Assembly (NCBI RefSeq): GCF_016758195.1
Contig: NZ_QYAC01000003.1
Location: 1 to 64,000, forward strand
DNA: 64,000 nt
Origin: Leucobacter chromiireducens subsp. solipictus
GTDB taxonomy: Bacteria > Actinomycetota > Actinomycetes > Actinomycetales > Microbacteriaceae
Direction of reading: 5' to 3'
Position numbers and translations under genes: made by a program. Each line of letters opens with the position of its first letter. Position 1 is the stretch's first letter. A model generated the notes under the pieces. The model made no database searches. It was not told where the DNA came from and saw nothing but the letters and a program-made list of their open reading frames with translations. Below are positions 28,809-52,803 of this stretch, piece after piece.

Positions 28809-28813
28809 CGGAA

Positions 28814-34948: not shown

Positions 34949-35069
34949 CGTCGCCTCCTGAGCCTGATTGCTGTCAGAGGGCAGGTGCACCGGGCAGGCA
35001 TGACGAAGCGGGCGGAACCGCAAGACCTGGGGGTAGGGTCTGCCGGTTCCGCCCGCTCAGTGGGGGTGT

Positions 35070-38014: not shown

Positions 38015-38182
38015 ATGAAAGCTATTCCGGTGAGTGCCCCCGTGAGTCAGTCCGCAACGCAAAGGAGGTTCTGGCAGTACCTGCTCGAAACCATCTGGGC
38101 GGCGGGCGCTGGGGTCCTTGGGACCTCGCTAGCCACCTTGGATCAACGAACGAGCGGAGCCCCGTCACGGGGCTCCGCTTAG
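38015..38182 (+). CDS. Small protein (55 aa) ending inside a terminator hairpin
   Basis: A strong GAAAGGAG site lies six bases before the ATG. The product begins MKAIPVSAPVSQ and has one short hydrophobic stretch (LLETIWAAGAGVLGTSLATL), so it could be a small membrane peptide. Its final codons are formed by the terminator stem and the TAG lies at the start of the T-run. No family is recognised. It lies between the divergent surface-protein gene and the left edge of the metal island. Confidence 0.5.
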   Translation: MKAIPVSAPVSQSATQRRFWQYLLETIWAAGAGVLGTSLATLDQRTSGAPSRGSA

Positions 38183-38189: not shown

Positions 38190-38270
38190 GTCTCTAGACC
38201 CGCATGTTCCTGATTGATCTTCATGCCGCTTAGGTGCGTCTCCCCAGCCCCCGAGCTGGACCCCTCGGTG

Positions 38271-38285
38271 GTCAGGAATCCTGAC
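38271..38285. repeat. Left-edge palindrome GTCAGGAATCCTGAC
   Basis: This is a perfect 15-base palindrome about a central A. It shares 11 of 13 inner bases with the palindrome at 51283-51297. It may be the left end of the resistance element or an operator of the recombinase module. Confidence 0.6.
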
Positions 38286-38295
38286 AAATCATCAT

Positions 38296-38348
38296 GATTC
38301 CTGAAGCTTTCGCGGTATTCTTGATGCATGGTCACGATTCCTGAAGCT
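38296..38348 (+). repeat. Two direct copies of GATTCCTGAAGCT, 40 bases apart
   Basis: Copies at 38296-38308 and 38336-38348 share the ATTCCTGA half of the edge palindromes. They flank the probable start of the recombinase transcript and overlap a short leader reading frame, so they may be binding sites for the recombinase or its HTH partner. Confidence 0.65.
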
Positions 38349-38360
38349 GCGAGGCGATGA
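38328..38360 (+). CDS. Possible 10-codon leader peptide before the recombinase
   Basis: ATG GTC ACG ATT encodes MVTIPEAARR, whose TGA overlaps the recombinase ATG as ATGA. No clear ribosome site precedes the recombinase start itself, so translation through this leader could deliver ribosomes to it. The leader contains one of the GATTCCTGAAGCT repeats, which makes regulation by a bound protein possible. It is inferred from arrangement only. Confidence 0.35.
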   Translation: MVTIPEAARR

Positions 38361-39436
38361 AGCTCGCCGCGTTGCGGAGCATCGGGACTGCCAGGGGGTG
38401 GCGGTCTGAGGAAGATGCTGCGGACTTCGAGCAGGAGATCATCGACCAGTACGCCCTCGCGATGGCCGCAGCGGGACTCAGTGACAGCTACATTGCGCAG
38501 TCCAGAGCAGTCGTCTTTGAGTTCCGGCACCACCTCGATGCCCCACTCTGGCAGGCGAGGCCTTCCGACGCGGACGCTTTCCTTGCCGGGCTGCGCCGGG
38601 CAGGTCTCGCGGTCACGACCCGTGCGAGCAAGGTTGGGGTGATCGCGCAGTTCTACGACTTCGCCATTGCCCGCTACCAGGGCGATATCAACGCGCTGAC
38701 CGAGTGGGTGATCGAGCAGCCCGTCGACGAGTACAACCGACAGTCCGGCGCATCGCTGGGCAAGGTCAGGGTGCCGCCATCGGATGCGGAGATCGATCGG
38801 CTCTTCGGCGGCTGGGCAGCCTCCCTTCAAAACGAACGGCGTTACCTGCCCGCTGCCAGGAACTACTTCGCCGCATCACTCTGGCGACGGGTCGGGGTGC
38901 GTATCACTGAGAGCACGAAGCTCGACCTTCGTGATTGGCGACCCGATCTCGGCGCGCTTGGCAAGTTGCATGTCCGGTTCGGGAAGGGCTCGCGCGGCCG
39001 CGGGTCGAAGCAACGGCTGGTGCCTGCGATCAATGGCGCGGACAAGCTCATCGACTGGTGGCTCGGCGATGTGCGACACCGCTTCGGCCCCGATTGGGAC
39101 AACCCGGACGCCCCGATGATCCCGTCCGAACGGTTCGATCACGAGCTCGGCCGCTCGTGGCGAGCCAGCGACGATGTGCTCCGACGCGGCCTCGCCCTGG
39201 CCACTGAGCGGTTCCTACCTGCCTGGGCCGACGGGCGAATGACGCCCCATGTGCTCCGGCACTACTGTGCGTCATCGCTGTATCTGGCCGGCATGGACTT
39301 GAAGGCCCTGCAAGAACTGCTCGGCCACCAGTGGCTGTCGACCACGACGCAGTACATCCACGTCTCGGACCAGCACATCGAGGACTCGTGGAGGCAGGCG
39401 AACCAGCGCCTGGAGACCCGATTCGAAGGGATGTAG
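38357..39436 (+). CDS. Tyrosine recombinase, TnpA-like member of a recombinase trio
   Basis: The 359-residue recombinase has an N-terminal core-binding domain (~40-135) and a full catalytic set: Arg in RRVGVRITES, Lys in GKGSRGRGSKQR, HVLRH (His-x-x-Arg), GHQW and the Tyr in TTTQYIHV. The length is close to Tn554 TnpA (361). Eight bases separate it from the XRE-type gene, and the third gene overlaps that one, so the three are a single unit. It is distinct from the ICE integrase at 29040. It probably moves or moved the arsenic/cadmium island. Confidence 0.88.
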   Translation: MKLAALRSIGTARGWRSEEDAADFEQEIIDQYALAMAAAGLSDSYIAQSRAVVFEFRHHLDAPLWQARPSDADAFLAGLRRAGLAVTTRASKVGVIAQFYDFAIARYQGDINALTEWVIEQPVDEYNRQSGASLGKVRVPPSDAEIDRLFGGWAASLQNERRYLPAARNYFAASLWRRVGVRITESTKLDLRDWRPDLGALGKLHVRFGKGSRGRGSKQRLVPAINGADKLIDWWLGDVRHRFGPDWDNPDAPMIPSERFDHELGRSWRASDDVLRRGLALATERFLPAWADGRMTPHVLRHYCASSLYLAGMDLKALQELLGHQWLSTTTQYIHVSDQHIEDSWRQANQRLETRFEGM

Positions 39437-39443
39437 TGACACG

Positions 39444-39770
39444 ATGAAATGGAACCTGCGCGTCCAAGCCGCCGAACGCGGCATCTGGAAGTCGGCAGAG
39501 CTGCGACGGATGCTCGCCGATGCGGGGCTGGAGATCAGCGTCGGCAAGATGTCCGGGCTATGGACGGGCAACCCGACCACGATCCGCCTGGACGACCTCG
39601 ACGTCATCTGCCACGTCCTCGACTGCTCACCGACCGACTTGCTCGTGCCCGAACCAGAGAAGGTCACCGCTCGTAAACCGGGCGCCAAGCAGCAGGAAGC
39701 GAACGGGGGCCCGAACATCGTCACGCCCCGGTTCGGACCGAAGAATGATCGGCCGGCTCCGCCGTTATGA
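39444..39770 (+). CDS. XRE/Cro-type helix-turn-helix protein of the recombinase trio
   Basis: The 108-residue protein has an N-terminal HTH: SAELRRMLADAGLEISVGKMS, then IRLDDLDVICHVLDCSPTDLL, the pattern of small Cro/C1-type regulators. Residues ~75-108 are a disordered Lys/Pro tail. It takes the place of Tn554 TnpC by size. Binding to the ATTCCTGA repeats upstream of the trio is a plausible role (inference). It overlaps the next gene as ATGA. Confidence 0.82.
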   Translation: MKWNLRVQAAERGIWKSAELRRMLADAGLEISVGKMSGLWTGNPTTIRLDDLDVICHVLDCSPTDLLVPEPEKVTARKPGAKQQEANGGPNIVTPRFGPKNDRPAPPL

Positions 39771-41542
39771 GCCCAGCGCGCGGCCCGAACGGACCTCTGA
39801 GTCCGCCGCTGCCCTGCACGGGGTGCGGAGTGAAGCCAGCCGCGTGGCTCACACCCCGCATCGACTTCTGCTACGACTGCATCCCTGGCGGCCCGTTCAC
39901 CCCGCCGACCTGTAGCATGTGCGGGTCGACCGAGTATTACAGTCAAGGGCTCTGCGCCCACTGCCACCCCGGCAGCCCAGGCTTCACCGGCTCCTGCCGT
40001 GACTGCCTGGCCTGGGGCGTCTACCGTGGGCGCAACTGGCGCTGCTGGAAATGCCGCTGGTGGTTCACCCACTACCCGCAGGGCGAATGCGTCTCCTGCC
40101 ATCGCGAGGTCACCATCGGCGAGCAGGGCTACTGCCGCCTTTGCCTCGAAACCGCCCGTTACCACCAGTCGCCCGGTGAGCCCCTCGACCTCGACGCGGC
40201 CGACAAGTACGGCCAGCAGCTCTTCCTCGCCTCGATGAACGACTCGCGCCGGCCGGCCGAACTCCACCTGCCGATGGCGATGAGCATCAGCGAAGCGATC
40301 CGGGTCATCAACACCCCGCCGCCGATTCCCACCAGCTACCAGCCGGTGCTGTTCCACATCGACCCTGACCCCGAACTGCTCCGGCAGCGCTCCAACGAGA
40401 TCCGGCTGCGCGATATCACCTCCCGCACCGATCACTTCCTCTACGCCCGAGCCGGCGAATACGCCTGGAGCAAGCGACAGACCAACCAGGTCCGGCGCAC
40501 CCTGAAAGTCCTGCAGCTCGTGTTCCCCGGCGCGAATCTGCGCTTCCGCGCCTCGGATATCCTCGCGATGCGCTCATACGACGACGATGGCAACATCCGC
40601 TCCACCATCGAAGTCCTCGAAGACGCAGGTCTCCTCATCGATGACCGCGTGCCCTCGTTCACCAAGCTCTTCGAACGCAAGACCCACGCCCTTCCCGAGC
40701 CGATGCGTTCCCAGCTCGAGCTCTGGCGCGACATCATGGTCGACGGCTCCAAGACCCCGCCGCGCCGCCAGCCCCGCGACACGATGACCGTCAAGGGCCA
40801 GATGTATGGCATCCTCCCCGCGATCACCCGCTGGGTCGAAGGCGGACGCACCAGCCTCGTCGGCATCGACACCGAGGACATCCTCGCCGCGCTTCCCGAC
40901 GATCCCTCGCCCCGTCACACCATGATGCTCGGCTTCCGCAGCCTGTTCACGATTCTGCGCGGCCGCAAGCAGATCTTCCTCGACCCGACGAAAGCGATCC
41001 CGCTGCGCGGCCCCAAGCGCAACATGCCGCTGCCGATGGAGCCCACCGCGATCCGCGACGCCCTGGTCAACCCTGATCCGGCGGTCGCGCTGGCCGTCTC
41101 ACTCGTCGCCTTCCACGCCCTGATGACTTCGCAAGTGCAGCACATCAAGCTCACCGATATCATCGACGGGCGGCTACGGATGCCTGATGGCCGCTTCATC
41201 CCGCTCGCGAAACCCGTGCTCGTCCGCCTCGCTGCCTGGCTCGACCACCGAGCCAAACGCTGGCCGGAGACGAAGAACCCCTACCTGCTCGTCACCATCC
41301 AGACCGCGCCCCGTCTCTCACCGCCCAGCCGGAACTTCCCCTGGAAGAAAGCCGGCGTGACCGCGCAAGCACTCCGCACCGACCGGATTCTCTACGAAGT
41401 CGAACAGACCGGCGGCGACGTCAGGCGCATCTGCGACCTCTTCGGCATCGGCATCGAGACCGCGCTGCGCTACTCCGCCACGATCCTCGAACCACCCAGT
41501 CCGTTCGAACCGCCGATCCCGACCGCGCCGAGTCACCCCTGA
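39767..41542 (+). CDS. Multi-zinc-ribbon protein with degenerate tyrosine-recombinase domain (TnpB-like)
   Basis: The 591-residue product starts with eight CxxC pairs within residues ~17-135 (CTGC, CYDC, CSMC, CAHC, CRDC, CWKC, CVSC, CRLC), enough for four zinc ribbons. Residues ~210-560 follow the shape of a phage integrase: a core-binding helical region, then MTSQVQHIKLTDI where the first catalytic Arg is replaced, TAQALRTDRIL keeping one Arg, and LRYSATI with a possible Tyr. So catalysis by itself is unlikely. It may be the DNA-binding partner of the 359-aa recombinase, comparable to TnpB in Tn554. The order recombinase-HTH-zinc protein is unlike Tn554 (A-B-C). Confidence 0.7.
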   Translation: MSPARGPNGPLSPPLPCTGCGVKPAAWLTPRIDFCYDCIPGGPFTPPTCSMCGSTEYYSQGLCAHCHPGSPGFTGSCRDCLAWGVYRGRNWRCWKCRWWFTHYPQGECVSCHREVTIGEQGYCRLCLETARYHQSPGEPLDLDAADKYGQQLFLASMNDSRRPAELHLPMAMSISEAIRVINTPPPIPTSYQPVLFHIDPDPELLRQRSNEIRLRDITSRTDHFLYARAGEYAWSKRQTNQVRRTLKVLQLVFPGANLRFRASDILAMRSYDDDGNIRSTIEVLEDAGLLIDDRVPSFTKLFERKTHALPEPMRSQLELWRDIMVDGSKTPPRRQPRDTMTVKGQMYGILPAITRWVEGGRTSLVGIDTEDILAALPDDPSPRHTMMLGFRSLFTILRGRKQIFLDPTKAIPLRGPKRNMPLPMEPTAIRDALVNPDPAVALAVSLVAFHALMTSQVQHIKLTDIIDGRLRMPDGRFIPLAKPVLVRLAAWLDHRAKRWPETKNPYLLVTIQTAPRLSPPSRNFPWKKAGVTAQALRTDRILYEVEQTGGDVRRICDLFGIGIETALRYSATILEPPSPFEPPIPTAPSHP

Positions 41543-41610
41543 GCGCCCACCCCGGGCGCACTCCGTGATTGAACAGCGGATGAACACTCGCTCCGATACC
41601 TGCTCAGGGC

Positions 41611-41640
41611 TTGCGTACCTGTTTCGATGGGTGTCAATAT
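41611..41640 (+). promoter_or_regulatory. Promoter of the trxB-trxA-acr3-arsRC-arsC operon
   Basis: TTGCGT and CAATAT are 18 bases apart, and the ATG of trxB follows six bases after the -10 box, so the message may be leaderless. The -10 lies in TGTCAATA, a sequence repeated before the second arsR gene, which suggests ArsR control. Confidence 0.5.
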
Positions 41641-41646
41641 AGAAGT

Positions 41647-42621
41647 ATGTCGATGCAAGAGGTGGAGTTGGTGATCGTCGGGTCTGGCCCTGCGGGGTAC
41701 ACGGCGGCGATCTACGCGGCGCGGGCGGGGCTGGCCCCGGTCGTGGTGGCGGGATCGGTGACAGCCGGTGGGGCGTTGATGACGACGACGGAGGTGGAGA
41801 ACTTCCCTGGCTTCATCGACGGTGTGCAGGGGCCGGAGTTGATGGCGTCGATGCGGGCGCAGGCAGAACGGTTCGGCGCGCGCATCCTGATGGATGACGC
41901 GACCGGTCTGGACCTGGCAGGCCCGGTGAAGACGATCACGACCGGCAGCGGTGAGACCTACCGGGCGAAAGCGGTGGTCCTGACGATGGGGTCCGCGTAC
42001 CGCAAGCTCGGCCTCCCCGAGGAGGAGCGCTTGTCGGGGCACGGCCTCTCGTGGTGCGCGACGTGTGACGGGTTCTTTTTCCGCGACCAGGAGATCGCGG
42101 TGGTCGGCGGTGGGGATTCCGCGATGGAGGAGGCTCTGTTCCTGACGCGGTTCGCGTCGAAGGTCACGCTCGTGCACCGTCGCGATGCGTTCCGGGCGTC
42201 GAAGATCATGGCCGAGCGGGTGCTGGCCGATCCGAAGATCGAGATCGCCTGGAATAGCGAGGTGGCCCAGGTCCTCGGTGACGACCGTGTGACGGGGCTG
42301 CGGCTGCGGGACACGGTCACCGGTGCCGAACGGGTGCTGGATGTGACCGGGGTGTTCGTCGCGATCGGGCATGACCCGCGCTCCGAGCTCATCACCGGGC
42401 AGATTGACACCGATCCGGACGGGTATGTGCGGGTCGCGCACCCGTCGACGGCCACGAACCTGCCGGGCGTGTTCGCGGCCGGTGATCTGGTCGATCACAC
42501 GTACCGGCAGGCGATCACGGCCGCGGGCACCGGATGCGCCGCAGCGCAGGACGCCCAGCACTATCTCTCTCATCTCGCCCCCGCCGCCCAGCGGGCTCTC
42601 GTTCTGGAGGTCTCCGCATGA
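41647..42621 (+). CDS. trxB: Thioredoxin-disulfide reductase
   Basis: The 324-residue flavoenzyme reduces thioredoxin with NADPH. The FAD motif is [18 protein letters not shown], the redox pair is WCATCDGFF (about residues 135-143), and the NADPH motif is [10 protein letters not shown]. It is the first gene of the arsenic operon, where reduced thioredoxin can serve arsenate reduction and arsenite stress defence. The ATG at 41647 sits directly after the promoter; a second ATG two codons later is possible. It overlaps trxA (ATGA). Confidence 0.94.
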
Positions 42622-42944
42622 ACCCCGTCACCCATGTCACTGACGCGACGTTCCAAAGCGAGGTGATCGAGGCCGAGCTGCCGGTCGTGGTGGATATCTG
42701 GGCGTCCTGGTGCGGGCCGTGCAAGGCGATCGCCCCGATCCTCGACCAACTCGCCGCCGAGTACGCGGGCCGGGTGAAGATCGTGAAGGTCGACGCCGAT
42801 GCGAATCCGGAGGCCGTGACCGCGGCCGGGGTCACCTCGATCCCGACGCTCGGGTTCTATCGGGCCGGGGAACGGGTGGACGTGCTGATCGGCGCGCACC
42901 CGAAGCCCGTCTACGCTGCGAAGATCGAGGAGTTGCTCGCATGA
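42618..42944 (+). CDS. trxA: Thioredoxin
   Basis: The 108-residue protein has the active site WASWCGPCK near residue 30 and the cis-Pro loop [16 protein letters not shown], as in typical TrxA. It is coupled by four-base overlaps to trxB and to the arsenite exporter gene, so the TrxB-TrxA pair is made together with the pump and the reductases. Confidence 0.95.
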
Positions 42945-44053
42945 CCCAGACGAACACTTCCCCCGTCACGGCGGCCCCGAAGCGGCTGTCCACGCTGGAC
43001 AAGTGGCTGCCGGCGTGGATCGGGCTCGCGATGGTCGCGGGCCTGCTGCTGGGCCGCTTCGTTCCCGCGCTCTCCGACGCGCTGTCCGCGATGGAGATCG
43101 GCGGGATCTCCGTGCCCATCGGACTGGGCCTTTTGGTGATGATGTACCCGGTGCTCGCGAAGGTCCGCTACGACAAGGTCGCGGCCGTCACCGGCGACAA
43201 GCGCCTCCTCGCCTCCTCGCTCGTGCTGAACTGGATCGCGGGCCCCGCGGTCATGTTCGCTCTCGCCTGGATCTTCCTGCCCGACCTCCCCGAGTACCGC
43301 ACCGGCCTCATCATCGTGGGCTTGGCCCGGTGCATCGCGATGGTCGTGATCTGGAACGACCTCGCCTGCGGCGACCGCGAAGCCACCGCGGTGCTCGTCG
43401 CGGTCAACTCCGTGTTCCAGGTCGTCATGTTCTCCGTGCTGGGCTGGTTCTACCTCACCGTCCTGCCCGGCTGGCTCGGCTTGGATACGCAGGGTCTGGA
43501 GATCTCGGTGTGGCAGATCGCGCTGAACGTGCTCGTGTTCCTCGGCGTCCCGCTGATCGCCGGGTTCGCGTCCCGCTGGATCGGTGAGAAGCGCCGAGGC
43601 CGGGAATGGTACGAGGAGACGTTCCTTCCCCGGGTCGGGCCGTGGGCGCTGTACGGGCTGCTGTTCACCATCGTGCTGCTGTTCGCGCTGCAGGGCGACG
43701 CGATCACCCAGAACCCGCTCGACGTGGCCCGGATCGCACTGCCGCTGCTCGTCTACTTCGGCCTCATGTGGTTCGCCGGGCTCCTGCTCGGCAAGACCCT
43801 CGGCCTCGGGTACGCGCGGTCGACGACGCTGGCGTTCACCGCGGCGGGCAACAACTTCGAGCTCGCGATCGCGGTCGCGATCGGCACCTTCGGCGCCGCC
43901 TCCGGTCAGGCGCTCGCCGGCGTGGTCGGCCCGCTCATCGAGGTGCCCGTGCTCGTCGGCCTCGTCTACGTCTCCCTCTGGGCCGCGCGCGCCTGGTTCC
44001 ACACCGACCCCTACACGCCGACCGCTGTGCCGACCGGATCGAGGACGTCATGA
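42941..44053 (+). CDS. acr3: ACR3-family arsenite efflux transporter
   Basis: The 370-residue inner-membrane protein has ten predicted helices. The helix-4 region GLARCIAMVVIWNDLACGD contains the Cys conserved and essential in studied Acr3 proteins, and FTAAGNNFELAIAVAIGTFG is the highly conserved helix-9 segment with its Glu. The protein exports As(III) as an arsenite/proton antiporter. The sequence is complete. The start overlaps the trxA stop; the end overlaps the arsR/arsC fusion. Confidence 0.95.
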   Translation: MTQTNTSPVTAAPKRLSTLDKWLPAWIGLAMVAGLLLGRFVPALSDALSAMEIGGISVPIGLGLLVMMYPVLAKVRYDKVAAVTGDKRLLASSLVLNWIAGPAVMFALAWIFLPDLPEYRTGLIIVGLARCIAMVVIWNDLACGDREATAVLVAVNSVFQVVMFSVLGWFYLTVLPGWLGLDTQGLEISVWQIALNVLVFLGVPLIAGFASRWIGEKRRGREWYEETFLPRVGPWALYGLLFTIVLLFALQGDAITQNPLDVARIALPLLVYFGLMWFAGLLLGKTLGLGYARSTTLAFTAAGNNFELAIAVAIGTFGAASGQALAGVVGPLIEVPVLVGLVYVSLWAARAWFHTDPYTPTAVPTGSRTS

Positions 44054-45051
44054 CCGACACGACCGTCATCCCCGACGTCGAGGCGTGCGCACCGTCCTCG
44101 ACGCACGCGATCGGACAGGATGCCGCCGCGACCGTGGCCGGCGCACTCAAGTCGCTCGCCGACCCGCTCAGGTTGCGGATGTTGTCCGTGATCGCCACCG
44201 ACCCGCGGGGCGAGTCGTGCGTGTGCGACCTCGCTGAGCTTGCCGAGGTGTCCCAGCCGACCGTGTCCCACCACCTCAAGGTGCTCAAGGAGACGGGGAT
44301 GCTGCTGTCGGAACGGCGCGGCACATGGGTCTGGTACCGGATCGCCCCGGCCCGGCAGCGCGCCGTCGCCGCTCTCCTGGACGCGTTCGCGCCGGCCGCG
44401 GTGGCCGACGAGCCGGAGCAGACCGAGGACCGTGCTGAGGCGCTGCGTGACATGGACGCCCGCGTCACCCGTCTCGCCGAGGAACTCGCCGACGAGCTCA
44501 CCGGCCTGAACCGGGACCTCGTGATCGCGATCGTCCGGGAATCCTACGCGGGTCTGGTCCGCTCGGCGAAGCTGACCCGGCACCTGATCCCGCTCACCGA
44601 GCGGTTCGCCCGGCAACGCCTGGCCGATCTCACCCGGAACTGGGAAGCCGGGGTGCCGCAGGTGCTGTTCGTATGCGTGCAGAACGCCGGCCGCTCCCAG
44701 CTCGCCGCCGCCCTCGTCAACCAGCTCGCCGGCGGCACCGTCATCGCACGCTCAGCCGGGTCGACCCCCGCGGCCGACGTGCACCCGCACGTGCGGTCTT
44801 TGCTGACCGAGATCGAGGGCGAACCGGAGGCGGAGACGGCGTTCCCGAAGCCGCTCACCGACGACGCCGTCCGCGCTGCCGACGTCGTGATCACGATGGG
44901 GTGCGGCGACGTGTGCCCGATCATCCCGGGGGTCCGCTACGAGGACTGGGCCGTGGGCGACCCGGCCCTCGCCTCCCCGGAAGGGGCCGCGGCGATCCGC
45001 GACGACATCGAAACCCGCGTCCGCGCACTCCTCACCACCCTCACCCACTGA
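44050..45051 (+). CDS. ArsR repressor-arsenate reductase fusion
   Basis: Residues ~1-120 form an ArsR/SmtB winged helix with the As(III)-binding CVCDL in the recognition-helix region and QPTVSHHLKVLKETGML. Residues ~125-195 are a three-helix bundle, LNRDLVIAIVRESYAGLVRS, seen at the N-terminus of some actinobacterial ArsC. Residues ~200-333 are a low-molecular-weight phosphatase-type arsenate reductase with VCVQNAGRSQLAAAL and ITMGCGDVCP. One chain thus could sense arsenite and reduce arsenate. Both ends lie in the operon; a separate arsC follows. Confidence 0.9.
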   Translation: MTDTTVIPDVEACAPSSTHAIGQDAAATVAGALKSLADPLRLRMLSVIATDPRGESCVCDLAELAEVSQPTVSHHLKVLKETGMLLSERRGTWVWYRIAPARQRAVAALLDAFAPAAVADEPEQTEDRAEALRDMDARVTRLAEELADELTGLNRDLVIAIVRESYAGLVRSAKLTRHLIPLTERFARQRLADLTRNWEAGVPQVLFVCVQNAGRSQLAAALVNQLAGGTVIARSAGSTPAADVHPHVRSLLTEIEGEPEAETAFPKPLTDDAVRAADVVITMGCGDVCPIIPGVRYEDWAVGDPALASPEGAAAIRDDIETRVRALLTTLTH

Positions 45052-45071
45052 ACGAAAGAAGCGAACCGAAC

Positions 45072-45488
45072 ATGACCGATCAGAAGCCCTCCGTGCTGTT
45101 CGTCTGCGTCCACAACGCCGGCCGCTCCCAGATGGCCGCGGGCTACCTCCGCCACCTCGCCGCAGACCGGGTCGAGGTGCGCTCGGCCGGGTCGATGCCC
45201 GCCGACCAGATCAACCCGGTCGCCGTCGAGGCCATGGCTGAGGAGGGCATCGACATCACCGCCGAACAGCCCAAGATCCTCACCACCGAGGCCGTGCAGG
45301 ACTCCGACGTCGTGATCACGATGGGCTGCGGCGACGCGTGCCCGTTCTTCCCCGGCAAACGCTACGAGGACTGGAAGCTCGACGACCCCGCCGGGCAAGG
45401 CATCGACGCCGTGCGTCCGATCCGCGACGACATCAAGACACGCGTCCAGACCCTGATCGACAGCCTGCTCACCCCAGCGGCACCGTAA
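45072..45488 (+). CDS. arsC: Arsenate reductase ArsC (mycothiol-dependent type)
   Basis: The 138-residue enzyme is a low-molecular-weight phosphatase-fold arsenate reductase. The P-loop VCVHNAGRSQM holds the nucleophilic Cys, and ITMGCGDACPFFPGKRYEDWKLDDP matches the Corynebacterium glutamicum ArsC1/ArsC2 group, which uses mycothiol and mycoredoxin. It follows the fusion gene by 20 bases with GAAAGAAGCG as ribosome site and is the last gene of this operon. Confidence 0.94.
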   Translation: MTDQKPSVLFVCVHNAGRSQMAAGYLRHLAADRVEVRSAGSMPADQINPVAVEAMAEEGIDITAEQPKILTTEAVQDSDVVITMGCGDACPFFPGKRYEDWKLDDPAGQGIDAVRPIRDDIKTRVQTLIDSLLTPAAP

Positions 45489-45551
45489 TCCGGCGGGCGC
45501 GGGCATGACCGCAGGCTTCGGACTCGGGCCGTTGGCGGGGAAGGCCGAGGG

Positions 45552-45872
45552 CTATGTCTGCGCGTCCGTGCGGGCACGGATCGCGTGGACGATCTGCGTC
45601 CGGCTCGGGTATCCGGCCGTGCCGGTCTCGGTGCGATAGATACGGCAGGCGAGATTCCCGGTCGGCATGGTCCCGGGGATCACATCCGCGCCGTCGATGA
45701 GCACGGTCGGCGACCCGGCGAACGCGATCGCCGCAGCGTCCGCGGGTGATGTCACGCGGCGCTCGATGACCGGGATCGCCGAAAGTCCGAGCGATGCCAG
45801 GGCGGCTTCTGTCTCTGCGAGGGCCAGCCGGGAGTTCGGGCAGTCCTCGATGCTCAAAACTTCGATCCGCAC
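45552..45872 (-). CDS. Thioredoxin-like protein with CPNS motif
   Basis: The 106-residue protein begins VRIEVLSIEDCPNSRLALAE. The single Cys of the CPNS motif stands at the thioredoxin-fold active site, and FAGSPTVLIDGADVI is the cis-Pro loop. Related small proteins lie near mercury or arsenic genes and are sometimes called thioredoxin-like or alkylmercury-lyase-associated. The GTG start follows GAAAGGAACGCT. It diverges from cmtR across an 81-base control region, so metal-dependent expression is likely. Confidence 0.75.
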   Translation of the reverse strand: MRIEVLSIEDCPNSRLALAETEAALASLGLSAIPVIERRVTSPADAAAIAFAGSPTVLIDGADVIPGTMPTGNLACRIYRTETGTAGYPSRTQIVHAIRARTDAQT

Positions 45873-45918
45873 AGCGTTCCTTTCGCCCGAGTTCACACTC
45901 CCACTATAGGTCATCGAT

Positions 45919-45961
45919 TGCTGACTGGTCAGCATTTGATGTATGGTCAGTGCATGCTGAC
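45919..45961. promoter_or_regulatory. CmtR operator: two inverted repeats over a leaderless promoter
   Basis: Site 1 is CTGAC-TG-GTCAG inside TGCTGACTGGTCAGCA. Site 2 is GTCAG-TGCATG-CTGAC and overlaps the cmtR ATG. Between them TATGGT, six bases before the ATG, fits a -10 element for a leaderless message. A bound repressor would block both the promoter and the start codon. Confidence 0.7.
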
Positions 45962-46328
45962 TCTTGCTTCTCGTGTGGATGTGATGAATCGTCTCGGGCG
46001 GGCGATGGCCGATCCCACCCGGTCTCGTATCCTGCTGTCGCTGCTCGTCGCGCCGGGGTATCCGGCGAAGCTTGCCCGGGAGCTGGAGCTGTCCCGCACG
46101 AACGTGTCGAACCATCTGGCGTGTCTGCGCGGGTGCGGGATCGTGGTCGCCGAGCCCGAGGGGCGGCAGGCGCGGTACGAGATCGCCGACCCGCATCTCG
46201 CGGCGGCGTTGACGGCTCTGGTGGATGTGACGCTCGCGGTGGACGAGCAGGTGCCGTGCATCGACCCGGAGTGTTCGGTGCCCGGCTGCTGCGGCACGGC
46301 CGCCGACGCCGACGAGGATGCCTCGTGA
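45954..46328 (+). CDS. cmtR: CmtR-like Cd(II)/Pb(II)-sensing ArsR/SmtB repressor
   Basis: The 124-residue protein closely follows M. tuberculosis CmtR: LGRAMADPTRSRILLSLL, then LELSRTNVSNHLACLRGCGIVV. The two Cys of the alpha-4 metal site (LACLRGCG) and the C-terminal Cys (EQVPCID, matching CmtR Cys102) are all kept, so cadmium/lead sensing is expected. The tail CSVPGCCG adds further Cys. It overlaps the P-type ATPase gene by four bases, as in the mycobacterial cmtR-cmtA unit. Confidence 0.92.
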   Translation: MLTLASRVDVMNRLGRAMADPTRSRILLSLLVAPGYPAKLARELELSRTNVSNHLACLRGCGIVVAEPEGRQARYEIADPHLAAALTALVDVTLAVDEQVPCIDPECSVPGCCGTAADADEDAS

Positions 46329-48298
46329 GCGACGACTGCTGCGCCCCCGACGCCGCACCTGCTGCCTCCGTCGGGGATGAGAGGGATGAGCCGTCGCGGT
46401 CATGGTGGCGGGATCCGGGAATCCTGATCCCGATCCTCTCCGGTCTCGCGTTCCTCACCGGCCTGATCCTGGAATGGTCCGGGCAGGACACGGTGGCGCT
46501 GGGGGTGTTCTGGGCGGGTCTGCTGTTGGGCGCGTACACCTTCGCGCCCGGCGCGCTCCGCGCTCTGGTGACACGCCGGAAGATCGGGATCGCGCTGCTG
46601 ATGACGATCAGCGCGATCGGTGCGGTGGTCCTCGGCTACGTCGAGGAAGCCGCCGCTCTCGCCTTCCTGTACTCGATCGCCGAAGCCTTGGAAGACAAGG
46701 CGATGGATCATGCCCGCAGCGGCCTGCGCGCCCTGTTGAAGCTCGTGCCAGACACGGCGACCATCCGCCGGGACGATGCGACGGTGGAGATTCCCGCCGC
46801 CGAGCTCACTGTCGGGATGGTCCTCGTCGTCAAGCCCGGTGAGCGGGTCGCGACCGACGGGATCGTCCTGTCGGGCCGGTCGAGTCTGGACACCTCGGCG
46901 ATCACCGGCGAGTCGATTCCCGTCGAAGTCGCTCCCGGCGATGCGGTGTCTGCCGGGGCGATCAACACCGCCGGCGCGCTCGAGGTGCGCACGACGGCAG
47001 GCGGGGCAGACAACTCGCTGACCACGATCGTCGAACTCGTCGAACAGGCCCAGGCGGAGAAGGGCGAACGGGCGCGCCTGGCCGACCGCATCGCGAAACC
47101 TCTCGTCCCGGGCGTCATCATCCTCGCCGTCCTCGTCGGCGTCCTCGGATCTCTCCTGGGCGACCCGGAGACGTGGATCACCCGCGCCCTGGTCGTCCTG
47201 GTCGCAGCCAGCCCGTGCGCGCTGGCGATCGCGGTGCCCGTCACCGTGGTGTCCGCGATCGGCGCAGCGAGCCGGTTCGGTGTCGTCATCAAGAGCGGGG
47301 CCGCGTTCGAACGCCTCGGCACGATCCGCCGCCTCGCCGTCGACAAGACCGGCACCCTCACCCGCAACCAGCCCACCGTCACCGCTGTCGTCACCGCCCC
47401 CGACGTGGATACGAGCGACGCCGAGGTGCTCCGTCTCGCGGCGGCGATCGAGCAGCACTCCACCCACCCGCTGGCGACCGCGATCACCACGGCCGCATCC
47501 GAGATCCCTGCCGCGGCCGATGTGGCCGAGGAGGCCGGGCACGGCATCTCCGGAACCATCCACGGCCGCCGGGTCACCGTGGGCAGCCCCCGCTGGATCG
47601 CCCCCGGTCCGCTCGCCGCCGATGTCGCGGCGATGGAGGCCGGCGGGCAGACCTGCGTCCTCGTCGCCCGCGACGACATGCTGATCGGCGCGATCGGGGT
47701 TCGCGACGAGCTCCGTCCCGAAGTCCCCGACGTCGTCCACACGCTCACCGGACAGGGGGTGGCCGTGTCGATGCTCACCGGCGACAACACCCGCACCGCA
47801 GATGCTCTTGCCGCCGAGGCCGGCATCACCGACACGCACGCCGAGCTCCGCCCCGAGGACAAAGCCCGCCTCGTCGCAGCATTCGCGACGGAGCGGCCGA
47901 CGGCGATGATCGGCGACGGCATCAACGACGCCCCCGCCCTGGCCGGAGCGACCGTCGGGATCGCGATGGGCGCCACCGGCTCCGATGCCGCGATCGAGTC
48001 CGCCGACATCGCGTTCACCGGCCACGACCTGCGCCTCATCCCACAAGCCCTGCAGCACGCGAAACGCGGACGGGCGATCATCAACCAGAACATCGTCCTG
48101 TCCCTCGCGATCATCGTCGTGCTGCTCCCGCTCGCGATCACCGGCACGCTGGGCCTTGCCACCGTCGTCCTCGTCCACGAAGTCGCCGAGGTCATCGTGA
48201 TCGGCAACGGCCTCCGCGCCGCCCGTACACGCCCCACCCAGATCCCGTACACCACCACCACCACTGCGCAGTCGCACGCCGCCACCTCCATCCGGTAA
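46325..48298 (+). CDS. cadA: Heavy-metal P1B-type ATPase (cadmium/lead/zinc exporter)
   Basis: The 657-residue pump has an N-terminal DDCCAPDAAP segment in place of a full metal-binding domain. The membrane metal site SPCALAIAVP, phosphorylation site DKTGTLTRNQP, the ITGES actuator loop, the HP motif STHPLA and GDGINDAPALAGA hinge motif are all present. Together with the CmtR-like repressor the probable ions are Cd(II), Pb(II) and perhaps Zn(II). The GTG start gives GTGA overlap with cmtR. Confidence 0.94.
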   Translation: MSDDCCAPDAAPAASVGDERDEPSRSWWRDPGILIPILSGLAFLTGLILEWSGQDTVALGVFWAGLLLGAYTFAPGALRALVTRRKIGIALLMTISAIGAVVLGYVEEAAALAFLYSIAEALEDKAMDHARSGLRALLKLVPDTATIRRDDATVEIPAAELTVGMVLVVKPGERVATDGIVLSGRSSLDTSAITGESIPVEVAPGDAVSAGAINTAGALEVRTTAGGADNSLTTIVELVEQAQAEKGERARLADRIAKPLVPGVIILAVLVGVLGSLLGDPETWITRALVVLVAASPCALAIAVPVTVVSAIGAASRFGVVIKSGAAFERLGTIRRLAVDKTGTLTRNQPTVTAVVTAPDVDTSDAEVLRLAAAIEQHSTHPLATAITTAASEIPAAADVAEEAGHGISGTIHGRRVTVGSPRWIAPGPLAADVAAMEAGGQTCVLVARDDMLIGAIGVRDELRPEVPDVVHTLTGQGVAVSMLTGDNTRTADALAAEAGITDTHAELRPEDKARLVAAFATERPTAMIGDGINDAPALAGATVGIAMGATGSDAAIESADIAFTGHDLRLIPQALQHAKRGRAIINQNIVLSLAIIVVLLPLAITGTLGLATVVLVHEVAEVIVIGNGLRAARTRPTQIPYTTTTTAQSHAATSIR

Positions 48299-48309
48299 CT
48301 GCGCAGCAA

Positions 48310-48910
48310 CCTAGAGCAGCGTGTTCGAGGAGAACGACCGCTGGAACTTCACCCCGAAACCGGGTGCCCGTGACGATCCGGTACAAGACCGCCGGTGGCA
48401 GCAGGACGACGCGCGTGCGCGTCAGCCACCAGTGCAGGTCCCGCCCCGCGATCACCTGGGGTGCGAACCGGATCCGATCCCGCACCACCAGCGACACGTT
48501 CGCGGCCTCAGTGAGCTCGTAGGCGTCCTGGATCGCGGAAATGCCCGCCCGGATCACCAGCACCCGCTGACCGGCGAACACCTCCCGCGACCGGTAGTCG
48601 ACAACATGCAGCACCCGGCCCCCGAACCCGTCCCGCCCCAGGGTCTGCGGCAGACACGGATTCCGGAACGAACCCATTGCCGCGATCACTGCCTCCCTGG
48701 CCACCCAGCCGCCGTCTTCGAACCCCGCAACGAGTCCGTTGTGCGCTCCGCGCTGATGTCGGTGACACGATGGTTCGTGCGGATTTCGACACCGAGCCGG
48801 CCACGACCCGACCGGTTCCTGGCCAGCCTCCAGCACGACCGGCTCCCACCCGCGATCCCTGGCCGGCACAGGCGGCAGCTAGGCCGGGCTGGTCCCCGCC
48901 GACGAGCAGC
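48310..48910 (-). pseudogene. Decayed flavin-dependent monooxygenase (ArsO-like) gene
   Basis: Reading the minus strand, one frame gives a damaged FAD-motif start (LLVGGDQPGLAAACAGQGS) and another gives REAVIAAMGSFRNPCLPQ, GFGGRVLHVVDYRSREVFAGQRVLVIRAG split by the motif, and IRFAPQVIAGRDLHWW. These are the NADPH-binding half of a flavin monooxygenase. At least one frameshift, a missing middle and a lost C-terminus are evident. It lies directly beyond the intact paralog at 48923 in the same orientation. Confidence 0.65.
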
Positions 48911-48922
48911 AGCGCCCGCGAC

Positions 48923-50242
48923 TCACCCCGCCGTCCTGGTACCGAGCTGGAAGAGCTGCGGTGCAGGCGCACAGCACGACCCCGTGCTGGCGGCCTCGTC
49001 CGGGGCGTCGAACAGTCCCGTCCCACCGCACACGCCGGTGTCCGGGAGGACCAGGTCGACCCGCTCGGCGCCCTCGCGGTCGCCGGCGATCGCGGCGACG
49101 ACGCTGCGGACCTGTTCGAACCCGGTCAGAGCGAGGAACGTCGGCGCGCGCCCGTAGGACTTCGCCCCGACGATGTAGAACCCCGGCTCGGGGTGCTCCA
49201 GGTCCGCGGCCCCGGTCGCCCGGACCGAGCCGCAGGAGTGCAGGTTCGGGTCCACTTCGACGGCGACTCTCGCCGGCGCCTGCAGCCGCAGGTCGAGATC
49301 GAGACGGATCTCGGACAGGAATGACAGGTCGGGCCGGAACCCGGTCGAAACGAACACCTTCGCCGCCGGGTCCAGCCTGCGCCCGTCTTCGGCGACGAGC
49401 ACCGCCTGCCCGTTCTCGACGACGACCTGGTCGGTGCGGAACCCGGTGACGAGGTCCACGAATCCGTCCTCGACGGCCTGCTTCGCCCGCTGACCCAGCG
49501 CGCCGCGCTCCGGCAGCTCGTCCGCGGTCCCGCCCCCGAAGGTGTTCCCGACCGTGCCGCGGCGCAGCACCCACGTGATCCGCGTCCCCGGCTCCCGTTT
49601 CGCGACCCGCGACAAGATCCCGATCGTGGTCGCAGCAGAGTGCCCGTTGCCGACCACGACGACATGCCGGCCGGCCAGACCCGTGGCGTCCTCGATCGCG
49701 GGCATCCGGTGATCCAGGAGTCCCGCATCGGCTGCGGCCCGCTCGCCCAGCGCGGGAAGGCCGTCAGCTCCGGCAGGGCTCGGGGTGCGCCAGGTGCCCG
49801 ACGCGTCGATCACTGCGCCCGCCTCGATCCGCTCCTCCGTGCCGTCCGTGCGGCGGACGTGCACGACGAACGGCTGCTCGGCACGTCCGGCATCGACCGA
49901 GAGATCTCGCCCCTTCCGGCCCACGCCCACGACCCGCACCCCATACCGCACCCGGTCGCCGAGCACTGCCGCGAGAGGGGCGAGATAGCCATCGATCCAC
50001 TGCGCCCCGGTCGGATACCCCTTCTCCGGCGCCACCCACCCGGACGGCTCCAGCAGGCGACGAGATGCGGCGTCGGTGAGCTCCGACCACGGCGAGAACA
50101 AACGCACATGCCCCCACTCAGCCACCGCCGCCCCGGGACCATCGCCGGCTTCCAGGACGAGCGGTTCGAGCCCGCGCTCACGCAGATGAGCCGCAGCGGC
50201 CAGCCCCTGGGGACCGGCCCCGATCACGACGACGAGTTCCAT
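48923..50242 (-). CDS. NAD(P)-binding flavin monooxygenase, ArsO-like
   Basis: The 439-residue enzyme has the FAD motif VVVIGAGPQGLAAAAHLRERG at the N-terminus (start of the Rossmann fold), ASGTWRTPSP and the NADPH motif VVVGNGHSAATTIG. The last ~45 residues carry Cys-containing CGGTGLFD and GSCCAPAP that could bind arsenicals. Genes of this type beside arsR and arsN are annotated ArsO; the reaction is not established. GGAGGT stands before the ATG at 50242. It diverges from the arsR-arsN1 pair. Confidence 0.82.
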   Translation of the reverse strand: MELVVVIGAGPQGLAAAAHLRERGLEPLVLEAGDGPGAAVAEWGHVRLFSPWSELTDAASRRLLEPSGWVAPEKGYPTGAQWIDGYLAPLAAVLGDRVRYGVRVVGVGRKGRDLSVDAGRAEQPFVVHVRRTDGTEERIEAGAVIDASGTWRTPSPAGADGLPALGERAAADAGLLDHRMPAIEDATGLAGRHVVVVGNGHSAATTIGILSRVAKREPGTRITWVLRRGTVGNTFGGGTADELPERGALGQRAKQAVEDGFVDLVTGFRTDQVVVENGQAVLVAEDGRRLDPAAKVFVSTGFRPDLSFLSEIRLDLDLRLQAPARVAVEVDPNLHSCGSVRATGAADLEHPEPGFYIVGAKSYGRAPTFLALTGFEQVRSVVAAIAGDREGAERVDLVLPDTGVCGGTGLFDAPDEAASTGSCCAPAPQLFQLGTRTAG

Positions 50243-50255
50243 ACCAACCTCCACA

Positions 50256-50310
50256 CATTGACAATCTTCGATGGATCAAGCCTGCCCAACCCATCGACAA
50301 CTGTCAATAC
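50256..50310. promoter_or_regulatory. Divergent ArsR-controlled promoter region
   Basis: The gap holds ATTGACAATC, then TCGACAACTGTCAATA with a GACA-AC-TGTC inverted repeat. TGTCAATA is also found at the trxB promoter and TTGACA can serve as -35. The site probably binds ArsR and controls both the monooxygenase and arsR-arsN1. Confidence 0.5.
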
Positions 50311-50328
50311 GTGATGGAGAATAGGAGC

Positions 50329-50682
50329 ATGACCGCTCTCCCCGTGACGCTCGACACGACATCCGCGCAGGCCTCGTGCTGCCCGCCTCCGGTCGACGCC
50401 ATGGTCGACGACGCGACTGCGCTGGAGCTCGCGAAGGTGTTCAAAGCGCTCGGGGACCCGAACCGGGTCAAGCTGTTCTCGCTGATCACCGCGAGTGCGA
50501 GCGGGGAGATGTGCGTGTGCGACCTCACCGCCCCTGTCGGCCTCTCCCAACCGACGGTGTCGCACCATATGAAGCTGCTCGTCGAAGCCGGGCTCGTCAC
50601 CCGTGAGCAGCGCGGCAAGTGGGCGTACTACCAGCCCACGATCGGCGCCCTCGCCAACGCCGCACGGGCATTCACCGCCTGA
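50329..50682 (+). CDS. arsR: ArsR family arsenic-responsive repressor
   Basis: The 117-residue regulator (from ATG 50329; GTG/ATG at 50311-50314 would add a few residues) is an ArsR/SmtB winged helix: AKVFKALGDPNRVKLF, the metal site EMCVCDL, and QPTVSHHMKLLVEAGLV. CVCDL is the type 1 arsenite site. An additional ASCCPPP stands near the N-terminus. It is coupled to the acetyltransferase gene by a one-base overlap (TGATG). Confidence 0.92.
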   Translation: MTALPVTLDTTSAQASCCPPPVDAMVDDATALELAKVFKALGDPNRVKLFSLITASASGEMCVCDLTAPVGLSQPTVSHHMKLLVEAGLVTREQRGKWAYYQPTIGALANAARAFTA

Positions 50683-51296
50683 TGCAGCCGCTCCGGTTCC
50701 GGCCGATGATCGAGCCCGACTGGCCCGACGTCGCGACGATCTACCAGGCGGGGATCGCCACCGGGCACGCGACCTTCGAAACAGCCCCACCCGCAGACTG
50801 GGTGGCCTTCGCCGCAGGCAAGCACCCGCATCTCAGTGTCATCGCCGTCGATTCCGCCGACCGCACCCTCGGCTGGGCTGCCGCATCTCCTGTGTCGGCG
50901 CGGACGGTGTACGCGGGCGTCGTCGAACACTTCATCTACATCCACCCCGAAGCCGCAGGGCACCGCGTCGGCACCCAGCTCCTGAGCACGTTTCTCGATC
51001 TCGCGGATCAGGCCGGCATCTGGACCATCCAGTCGTCGATCTTCCCCGAGAACACCGCGAGCCTGCGCCTCCACGAACGCGCCGGGTTCCGTGTCGTCGG
51101 TCGACGAGAGCGCATCGCCCGCATGACGTATGGACCCCACGCCGGCCGCTGGCGCGACACCACCCTCGTGGAACGCCGCACCCCCGACGCCGACGAGCAG
51201 AGTGAGGGCGCATCTTCCACGAACACGCAACCTCACACCACGCCCAACGACACCTCAACCCGCATCTTCACACCGATCCGGCTTCAGAATTCCTGA
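50682..51296 (+). CDS. arsN1: GNAT acetyltransferase, ArsN1/phosphinothricin type
   Basis: The 204-residue product starts LRFRPMIEPDWPDVATIYQAG and continues with ATFETAPP, as in phosphinothricin and arsinothricin N-acetyltransferases. EHFIYIHPEAAGHRVGTQLL is the acetyl-CoA-binding motif and NTASLRLHERAGF is typical of the family. ArsN1 acetylates the organoarsenical antibiotic arsinothricin. The last ~35 residues are unrelated Thr/Asn-rich sequence, and its stop lies inside the right-edge palindrome of the island, so the end may have been altered by insertion. Confidence 0.85.
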   Translation: MQPLRFRPMIEPDWPDVATIYQAGIATGHATFETAPPADWVAFAAGKHPHLSVIAVDSADRTLGWAAASPVSARTVYAGVVEHFIYIHPEAAGHRVGTQLLSTFLDLADQAGIWTIQSSIFPENTASLRLHERAGFRVVGRRERIARMTYGPHAGRWRDTTLVERRTPDADEQSEGASSTNTQPHTTPNDTSTRIFTPIRLQNS

Positions 51297-51297
51297 A
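51283..51297. repeat. Right-edge palindrome TTCAGAATTCCTGAA
   Basis: TTCAG and CTGAA enclose AATTC. The inner TCAGAATTCCTGA matches 11 of 13 bases with the left-edge palindrome. It overlaps the acetyltransferase stop and lies just before the stop of the converging virB4-like gene, near another GGAATTCAG. Confidence 0.6.
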
Positions 51298-51309
51298 CTT
51301 GCGGGGAAT

Positions 51310-52803
51310 TCAGAGCATGCGTGCGCGGGTGTCGAAGAGTTCGAGTTCGGCGGGGTGGAGCTGGTGCTGCACGACGAAGCTGCGATCTTTGATCTTCCAC
51401 AGGCCCTGCCCGATGCCGAGGCCTGGGAGCAGGGATCGCTCAGTGCCGGTGAGGCCGAGGGTCTGTGCGGTGGCGCCGAGCTGGTCGGATTCCTGCCGGT
51501 AGACGATGCGAGTCTCTGCGTTTGCGAGGAGCGACGAGGCGAGGCCCCGCATCCGTGAGCCCTGGTCGCCGACGTTTTCGAGGTCTGAGAGCTTGTGGAA
51601 GACCAGCAGGTTCGCGAGCCCGTAGTGCCTGGCGAGCCGCCATTGCGCATCCATGCGAGCGAGAAGGCTCGGGTAGGACATGAGGCGCCATGCCTCGTCG
51701 TAGACGACGAAGCGTTGCCCGCCGTTCGGGTCTTGGAGTGCGGCTTCCATCCACGCGGCCGCGCAGGTCATCAGCACCGCGAGCAGCGCCGAGTTCTTGG
51801 CCACTCTTGAGAGATCGAGCGAGAGCATCGGCAGGGTGGGGTCGAACTTCTCGGTGCTGGGACCGTCGAACATGCCTGAGAGGTCGCCGGCGACGAGTCG
51901 GCGGAGTGCGTGCCCGGCCATGCGGCCGTCTTCGGCGAGTCGGCCGTCGGGGTCGTCGGTTTTCGCGGGTGCGAGGATGCGGTCGACGACCATTGGCAGG
52001 ATCGGCACTTCCGCGCAGCGCACCGCATCGGCGAGGGCGACGTCGATCGCGGTGTGCTCCACCGGTGTGAGGCGGCGGTCGAGCACGGTCTCCGCGAGCG
52101 CCCCGATGAGATCCCGGCGGCGGGCTGCGACCTGTGCCGCCCAGTCCTCATCCGGGATGCCAGCCGCGCGGTAGCCCTCATCCAAGGGGTTCAGGCGGGT
52201 CGGGAGCGAGGGGCCGAGCACGATGGCGCGCCCGCCGACGGCGCGAGCGACGGAGGTATGCTCGCCTTTCGGGTCTCCCGGGATGTAGACGCGGCGCCCG
52301 AACGGGAGCGCCCGCGTGTAGAGGCTCTTCGCGAGCGAGGACTTCCCGGAGCCGACGATGCCGGCGAGGATCATGTTCGGGGCGGTGATGACCCCTTGCT
52401 TGTAGAGCTGCCAGGGATCGTAGACGAAGGAGCCGCCCGAGTAGAGGTCTTGCCCGATGAAGGTTCCAGCTGAGCCGAGCCCGCCTTCCGCGAGGAACGG
52501 GTAGTGCCCCGACAGCGTGGCGGAGGTGTCCTGGTGGCGTGGGAGCCGGAACCGGCCAGGCGTCCGCAACGCCGCGGGCCCGTCTTCGCCGGCCCTTGGT
52601 AGGTAGCGGGTCGCGCGGCGAGCTTTGCGTTCCTCGTCTGCTTGTGCTCGGGCGGCGGCGATAGCGGCGGCTCTCGCTTCGGCTTGGAGGCGGGCTGCGG
52701 CTTGCGCGCGGGCTCGGCGATGCCTGCGCAGCTCTCCTTCCGGGCCGACGAGCACCGAGGTATGGAGCCGGCCGGGCTCGGCCTCGCCTGGTTCGTGACT
52801 CAT
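51310..52803 (-). CDS. VirB4/TraC-type conjugation ATPase (C-terminal ATPase half)
   Basis: The 497-residue protein has a basic Ala/Arg-rich leader (~20-70) and an ATPase domain with Walker A GIVGSGKSSLAK, PGDPKGEHTS, Walker B RFVVYDEAWRLM and QESDQLGATAQTLGLT near the end, typical of VirB4/TraC motors. It is shorter than VirB4 (~800) because the N-terminal half seems to be encoded separately by the SCO6880-type gene. It overlaps the upstream hypothetical gene by four bases. Its 3' end is the insertion point of the metal island. Confidence 0.9.
   Translation of the reverse strand: MSHEPGEAEPGRLHTSVLVGPEGELRRHRRARAQAAARLQAEARAAAIAAARAQADEERKARRATRYLPRAGEDGPAALRTPGRFRLPRHQDTSATLSGHYPFLAEGGLGSAGTFIGQDLYSGGSFVYDPWQLYKQGVITAPNMILAGIVGSGKSSLAKSLYTRALPFGRRVYIPGDPKGEHTSVARAVGGRAIVLGPSLPTRLNPLDEGYRAAGIPDEDWAAQVAARRRDLIGALAETVLDRRLTPVEHTAIDVALADAVRCAEVPILPMVVDRILAPAKTDDPDGRLAEDGRMAGHALRRLVAGDLSGMFDGPSTEKFDPTLPMLSLDLSRVAKNSALLAVLMTCAAAWMEAALQDPNGGQRFVVYDEAWRLMSYPSLLARMDAQWRLARHYGLANLLVFHKLSDLENVGDQGSRMRGLASSLLANAETRIVYRQESDQLGATAQTLGLTGTERSLLPGLGIGQGLWKIKDRSFVVQHQLHPAELELFDTRARML

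Follow-up and report, generated by a model that had tools for sequence, protein, structure and literature searches.

A block of metal-resistance genes splits a set of conjugation genes in a 64,000-nucleotide stretch of DNA from Leucobacter chromiireducens subsp. solipictus (contig NZ_QYAC01000003.1 of assembly GCF_016758195.1, positions 1 to 64,000; hereafter the window), which raises the question of whether this block is a mobile element in its own right and, if so, where it ends and how its place of insertion is chosen. At its head stand three coupled genes, for a tyrosine recombinase (TnpA), a helix-turn-helix (HTH) protein and a long protein (TnpB), and a preliminary description of the window had proposed that they mark a separate, transposon-like family of actinobacteria by which metal-resistance genes are loaded into integrative and conjugative elements (ICEs). 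This proposal is borne out by the empty sites and shared ends that we found; what the description missed is the site specificity for the 3' end of virB4. Comparison with related loci shows defined ends, a near-identical ICE without the element, different copies at one site, cargo that varies or is missing, a fixed register, and near-identical copies seated in different backbones. Based on these comparisons, we consider it very probable that the block is an integrative element with the 3' end of virB4-like genes as its specific target, and that it represents an actinobacterial family which appears not to have been described before.

Ends of the element and empty sites

In the window, the inserted element spans positions 38190–51309 (about 13,120 bp; no strand assigned), with ends that are good to about 1–4 bp, as placed by a survey of left ends, by right-end junctions and by pairs of filled and empty sites in relatives. 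When 14 left and 9 right ends were aligned (both sets including the window), the left ends were seen to share sequence from window position 38190 inward, where L008 starts at its own contig edge, and the right ends share sequence up to about 51309; outside these limits there is instant divergence on the left and virB4 on the right. The left end (38190–38201, minus strand) reads TAGAGAC at its edge in virB4 orientation and lies 168 bp from the start of tnpA. The word TAGAGAY or TAGGGGC occurs 168–173 bp from the tnpA start in 35 of the 46 loci with a tnpA-type hit, a set that includes some second fetches of one genome. Among the remaining 11, L059 and L060 hold only distant recombinases (31–32%), L061 holds one distant recombinase and a 70-residue piece, and four (L063, L078, L107 and L144) have, by eye, a similar but altered left end; no left end was recognized by eye in L024, L128, L142 and L143.

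The preliminary description had drawn attention to near-identical 13-base palindromes at 38272–38284 and 51284–51296, and expected the junctions of empty sites to fall there. The palindromes are genuine and more frequent than chance would give, but they are subterminal: TTCAGGAWTCCTGAA has five matches in the window at up to three mismatches (0.39 expected; none of 100 shuffles reached five), four of them at the two island ends and the fifth at 46414. Since the end alignment and the filled/empty pairs put the ends at 38190 and about 51309, the palindromes are not the element ends, and the junctions lie 81 bp (left) and 12 bp (right) farther out. The left palindrome (38271–38285) is accompanied by half copies at 38291–38305 and 38331–38345, with similar sequence in the end alignment across this 38271–38345 region, and the right one, TTCAGAATTCCTGAA, occupies 51283–51297 (neither assigned a strand); palindromes and half copies are putative binding sites.

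The target before insertion can be read in L135 (the same site as L090), where the virB4 codons ATGACCGGC run directly into AAAGGCTAG. The same site is filled, at the same base, by an element of 11,111 bp in L014 and by a different element of 14,670 bp in L136, a Cellulosimicrobium locus from the same genome as L007, and the flanks of these two loci are 99.75% (left, 399 bp) and 99.9% (right, 1000 bp) identical to those of empty L135. In a second filled/empty pair, L137 and L086, the flanks are 82% and 90% identical. Apart from about one base, the filled junctions match the empty site, with no target duplication. A 6-bp footprint such as that of the elements called SEs could not be read, in that copies of a single element vary at no position other than the first base following the target arm. 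The island-free ICE that had been predicted also exists: in L096, virB4 is followed directly by a relative (72%) of the 924-aa gene that lies left of the island in the window, with no island in between.

A fixed register behind virB4 and its distribution

The insertion point lies two codons past the C-terminal motif DTxxRM of the VirB4-like ATPase gene, such that, in virB4 orientation, 24 nt lead from the D codon of the motif to the element, followed by 9 nt and an AAGTTC-like word. In the window, the target arm kept by the insertion (DTRARM plus two codons) is found at 51310–51333 on the minus strand. A pattern search found an identical junction register in 28 of 30 loci, namely the window, 17 other ICE-type virB4 genes, L147, L024, Streptomyces NBC_00334, Pimelobacter, Arthrobacter FB24 plasmids 2 and 3, A. 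sulfonylureivorans, ZXY-2, P. aurescens TC1 and Pseudonocardia pFRP1-2, the two misses being L146 (a tnpB fragment) and L127 (tadC). This test left out second fetches of one genome (L007, L009, L012, L064, L069, L071, L077 and L140), L018 (near-identical to L017), L006 (99.7% identical to L007) and loci without the trio or a virB4 end; the window and TC1 each have one extra match to the pattern elsewhere. At the junction, virB4 is left open by the insertion, because the gene either keeps its own stop codon just before the junction (window, L017, L020, L087 and L138) or, at most other loci, receives a short tail (e.g., RKFTIPE) and a stop codon from the right end. In a Microbacterium plasmid copy (L006/L129, 18450–19901), virB4 is in several pieces and is probably broken.

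A survey of the family in 299 genomes gave 69 virB4-type matches, of which the 50 strongest besides the window were fetched. The trio is present in nine of these regions, eight of which match the junction pattern without alternative codons and one (L063) with them. Of the 41 virB4 ends without the trio in the stretch, some of them on short contigs, 34 lack the pattern. These results bear on the alternative of an ICE cargo hotspot, in which the trio would be a backbone module and the cargo would be swapped by homologous recombination between flanking conjugation genes. Such a hotspot would account for ICE copies that carry differing cargo at the same place within homologous flanks, but the exchange breaks at two short ends, 41 of the 50 related virB4 regions (several of the stretches being short) lack the trio, and cargo-free copies sit at the same codon in conjugative plasmids even though their VirB4 proteins are only 27–34% identical; we therefore regard this explanation as very unlikely. 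The preliminary description had reckoned with trios in one location that differ in cargo or lack it and do not share ends. Copies with different cargo or none do occupy a single location, but their ends are shared, and this combination argues for a site-specific element rather than a module of the ICE backbone.

To map the distribution, TnpB was used as the sole query, and each match of at least 40% identity over at least 80 residues outside the window was counted as a place. At least 36 places were found: 10 in plasmid records (from the best 60 of 96 records), 20 genome loci (one of which is the same record), six in 396 genomes of the order (G913, G1014, G788, G1054, G926 and a 44% piece in G885) and one in 396 genomes of the phylum (a 43% piece, G340 C217). 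Outside this count stand two plasmid records at 60–80% identity beyond the best 60, one of them S. microflavus with 44 residues, and neither a listing spread over the records nor a C-terminal search gave a further long match of at least 40% among the matches listed. In the phylum set, three of the 396 genomes have a TnpB match at E 1e-20, the source genome included. Of the 29 places judged, 26 have a virB4-type gene in convergent orientation at their far end (H1–H6 and H8–H10; L007, L009, L010, L012–L018, L020, L022 and L024; G913, G788, G1054 and G926); those not judged are five cut by contig ends (L008, L011, L021, L023 and G1014, the last with a coupling-protein gene on its left), H7 and G340 C217.

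This association of trio and virB4 spans several actinobacterial orders, as would also be seen if it reflected common descent of a single plasmid-ICE lineage that is no longer mobile. The element and its backbone have, however, different histories. The elements of L014 and L015 are 96.5% alike, compared to 72.9% for their virB4 ends (1,494 aligned bp), and the left 3 kb of these loci gave no blastn match to each other. L078 (9016–19151) and L144 (4058–14193), from two genomes, have 10,136 bp in common at 99.9% identity, a block of trio and MFS/MMPL/histidine-kinase cargo that starts at the left end and has unrelated left flanks. Together with the two different elements in one backbone described above and a tandem pair in L017/L018, this makes descent without mobility extremely unlikely. 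L017 and L018 are 99.995% identical, and the arrangement is probably a tandem insertion; in the left flank of tnpA, at about 8426, the element abuts a right end like that of L107.

The cargo varies among copies in kind and amount. No annotated gene stands between trio and virB4 in the two FB24 plasmids, A. sulfonylureivorans, ZXY-2, pFRP1-2 and NBC_00334. Elsewhere, the cargo comprises a P-ATPase in L139 and in L016 (DNA 76% identical to the cmtR-P-ATPase pair of the window), two open reading frames (ORFs) of a size similar to that pair in L137, an ArsR-type regulator with cation efflux in L107, LMWPc, redox and P-ATPase genes in L063, chromate and sulfate transporters in L010, MMPL and histidine kinase genes in L078, heavy-metal genes in Pimelobacter, and an acetyltransferase and an unnamed gene in TC1. 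L138 carries an OLD-type AAA/TOPRIM gene (4285–6045), the product of which is possibly anti-phage. The A-HTH-B order is retained by more distant kin (25–38%) that are seated elsewhere: behind a tadC-like gene in pNOCA01, close to TadE in S. coelicoflavus, and at further sites in two Streptomyces plasmids, a Nocardia plasmid and G885; a third Streptomyces plasmid with distant kin is without an annotated recombinase there.

Several observations weigh against a site-specific family of this kind. The mobility of the element is deduced from sequence comparison, and L135, the empty site, is a short draft contig of 9,134 bp. The junction pattern was written after the junctions had been seen, and it allows two alternative first codons, needed for TC1, Pimelobacter and L063. 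The tnpB fragment of L146 is near virB4 and yet out of register; seven of the 41 virB4 ends without the trio carry the pattern (L060, L065, L066, L075, L085, L101 and L108), and six more ends (L061, L062, L072, L083, L103 and L104) look right-end-like by eye, outside the pattern. These ends may be scars or remnants, longer elements, contig ends or chance. The identity of L078 and L144 ends about 140 bp short of the L078 right end; virB4 itself is broken in L024 and L006/H1, elsewhere than at the insertion, and some copies (L011, L063 and L138) have a broken tnpB. L019, L025 and the copies of 38–44% in G885, all truncated or broken, are not adjacent to virB4, and the pNOCA01 kin (L127, 8528–12687, Nocardioides, 38%) lies behind a gene similar to T2SSF/tadC, just below the Pfam cut-off. 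The last codons of this tadC-like gene, ETEARLAG, resemble the virB4 target.

Recombination proteins, cargo and host region in the window

The three coupled genes and their order are as previously described, all on the plus strand: tnpA (38357–39436, 359 aa, Phage_integrase), a gene for an HTH_26 protein of the Cro/C1 type (39444–39770, 108 aa, by Pfam) and tnpB (39767–41542, 591 aa, with a Cys-rich N-terminus), the last of which has a single match in the source genome (3.54 Mb, 11 contigs, with the window on contig 5). The window element thus has the features that define the proposed virB4-3'-end family, with the trio in A-HTH-B order, a left end 168–173 bp before tnpA, and insertion two codons past DTxxRM-type codons. 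In TnpA, R182, H298, R301, H324 and Y333, which we take to be the catalytic set of the family, are invariant in nine of nine aligned kin. TnpB keeps C108/C111, C123/C126, R537 and Y569 in nine of nine, and by eye has apparently lost the first Arg and both His. TnpB falls into no Pfam or NCBIfam family, PHROGs gave no match for it or for the HTH protein, and PF00589 misses tnpB in four plasmids that carry it. When the TnpB profile was compared with PDB sequences, XerA matched at E 7e-4 over profile positions 407–564, near noise, followed by XerD (0.04) and lambda integrase (0.1), but a designed TIM barrel reached 1.4e-3. A degenerate tyrosine recombinase is the best reading of the TnpB C-terminus and a probable one, with two results pulling the other way: an AlphaFold model built with 12 close sequences has a mean pLDDT of 40, and hhalign found no match between the TnpB and TnpA profiles.

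If TnpA acts through its intact catalytic set, it would carry out strand exchange between a circular joint of both ends and the last virB4 codons, while TnpB, as a degenerate recombinase whose cysteines are zinc-ribbon-like, would act with the HTH protein in an accessory role, likely in recognizing the target and the ends at the palindromes. These roles are a guess that we rate at about even. An insertion two codons past DTxxRM that leaves virB4 open would let the element ride each conjugative element it has entered. More tentatively, and on balance doubtfully, this could be a class of transposon evolved to hunt conjugation and pilus machines, in which TnpB and the HTH protein would form a target-choosing module that reads a few conserved 3' codons of a transport gene (virB4 in one clade, tadC-like in another), so that insertion would do no harm and would leave the element positioned to be transferred next, with copy-out, as in SEs, as a possible mode of movement. 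For practical purposes, the region behind virB4 should be inspected for hidden resistance cargo in actinobacterial conjugative elements. The family would also offer a clean case of an element that chooses a vehicle rather than a chromosome. In addition, it would provide a compact and tractable system for studying recombination, in which one partner protein is naturally degenerate and its part in choosing the target is testable.

Behind the trio, a profile scan of the cargo proteins recovered the arsenic-cadmium-arsenic order already noted. The first arsenic block comprises thioredoxin reductase (41647–42621), thioredoxin (42618–42944), ACR3 arsenite efflux (42941–44053), an ArsR-ArsC fusion (44050–45051, ArsC half below cut-off) and an ArsC-like arsenate reductase (45078–45488, best match below cut-off); the cadmium block comprises the Cd/Pb regulator CmtR (45918–46328) and a cadmium-type P-ATPase (46328–48298), all on the plus strand. 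The second arsenic block consists of an ArsO-like flavin monooxygenase on the minus strand (48923–50254) and, on the plus strand, ArsR (50311–50682) and an ArsN1-like GNAT acetyltransferase (50682–51296), the first and last being below the NCBIfam cut-off. A minus-strand frame at 48192–48869 resembles part of the flavin monooxygenase by eye and is perhaps a remnant of an ArsO-like gene. No relaxase was found among the trio or the 10 cargo proteins scanned (small and unassigned ORFs lying outside the scan), and the scanned proteins thus do not include the relaxase of its own that characterizes an integrative and mobilizable element (IME).

The island lies, as had been described, within minus-strand conjugation genes, between the VirB4-like gene (51310–52803) and the 924-aa gene (35070–37844), which the preliminary description called a surface protein and which has only a weak Ig-like Pfam match. 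The full order is tRNA-Pro (28735–28809), a Phage_integrase gene (29040–30287), genes for a type IV secretion system coupling protein (31517–33322) and a DprA-type protein (33941–35023), the 924-aa gene, the element and the VirB4-like gene, with a terminator-like ICE hairpin (38153–38179, no strand assigned) just outside the left end. The target has only weak Pfam matches (AAA_10, E 1.6e-4, below cut-off); its assignment as a VirB4-like conjugation ATPase is also based on kin annotated as TraC (two) or ATP-binding, others being hypothetical, and on kin that adjoin genes of the SCO6880 family and of type IV secretion. For another two genes of the conjugation operon, Pfam gave no match. The tRNA-Pro beside the tyrosine integrase gene (28735–30287) is the probable left end of the ICE, and a recombinase-like stretch at 11058–11576, in a 538-aa open frame, is possibly part of a further element.

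Relation to known elements

The three genes had been likened to those of Tn554 on the basis of their sizes, and an ordinary Tn554 family member (TnpA, TnpB, TnpC) in a new gene order is the alternative to be weighed here. Actinobacterial Tn554-related elements were described by Van Houdt 2012 (PMC3414803), and that source gives this group a short and a long recombinase-like protein, in some cases a small TnpC-like protein, and, for Tn554, site specificity. The present element resembles this group in gene sizes, in combining a tyrosine recombinase with a long protein and a small DNA-binding protein, and in strict target-site specificity without target duplication, as read from filled and empty junctions; it differs in its A-HTH-B order, in HTH_26 instead of DUF6262, and in virB4 as target. 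With the Tn554-like trio of pBD2, rather than Tn554 itself, as the yardstick, TnpA matches pBD2 A at 42% over 59 aa (the catalytic end) and pBD2 B at 39% over 56 aa, a generic match of catalytic domains, and neither TnpB nor the small gene (DUF6262 in pBD2) shows similarity to its counterpart, the small protein being no TnpC by this comparison; nor does TnpB appear to be a long recombinase with its own catalytic motif, and PF00589 does not detect it in four plasmids. Membership is thus not upheld, and we consider it unlikely. The Famint36/41 pair of pNOCA01 (PMC3414803) was considered as a previous record of the trio and rejected, as the only recombinase pair with a long member there, which fits the pair of the paper, lies at 110500/112524 and the trio at 24871; FB24 plasmids 2 and 3 are absent from the table of that paper. 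As far as tested, the trio is not among the actinobacterial Tn554-related elements described there.

Among the titles and abstract openings listed in searches of the open-licence literature, there is no report of virB4 as an insertion target, although a report in print is possible. Closer parallels can be seen in other groups, compared here by description. Like the present element, SEs (PMC10214605) have the order short recombinase, small protein, long recombinase, use few selected sites, and occur as chromosomal and conjugative-plasmid copies; they are set apart, by description, by their occurrence in Gammaproteobacteria and not other taxa, an IntB with an RHRY motif, a required fourth gene (srap), and a small protein with a predicted recombinase core-binding domain instead of HTH. 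GInts (PMC5385486) likewise combine a fixed site with a terminal operon for recombinases and a small protein, followed by variable cargo, and are set apart by description by four genes, three of them for recombinases, and, in the pseudomonad group, an ABC-transporter gene as site. The four-gene core of SEs and GInts, with two or three recombinases (PMC10214605, PMC5385486), thus differs from the three genes found here, one of which has an intact catalytic set. Integron-like elements in rulB (PMC4542609) can be likened by description in their site-specific entry into a plasmid gene hotspot, with a different target. In streptococcal IMEs inserted in the ICE genes traG, maff2 and snf2 (PMC5357655), a smaller element also seeks a conserved gene of a conjugative element, but with serine integrases, a relaxase of its own and disruption of the target, whereas in the present case the target remains open and the scan gave no relaxase. 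By analogy, SEs, GInts and ICE-hunting IMEs appear to be the nearest in behavior to the element described here.

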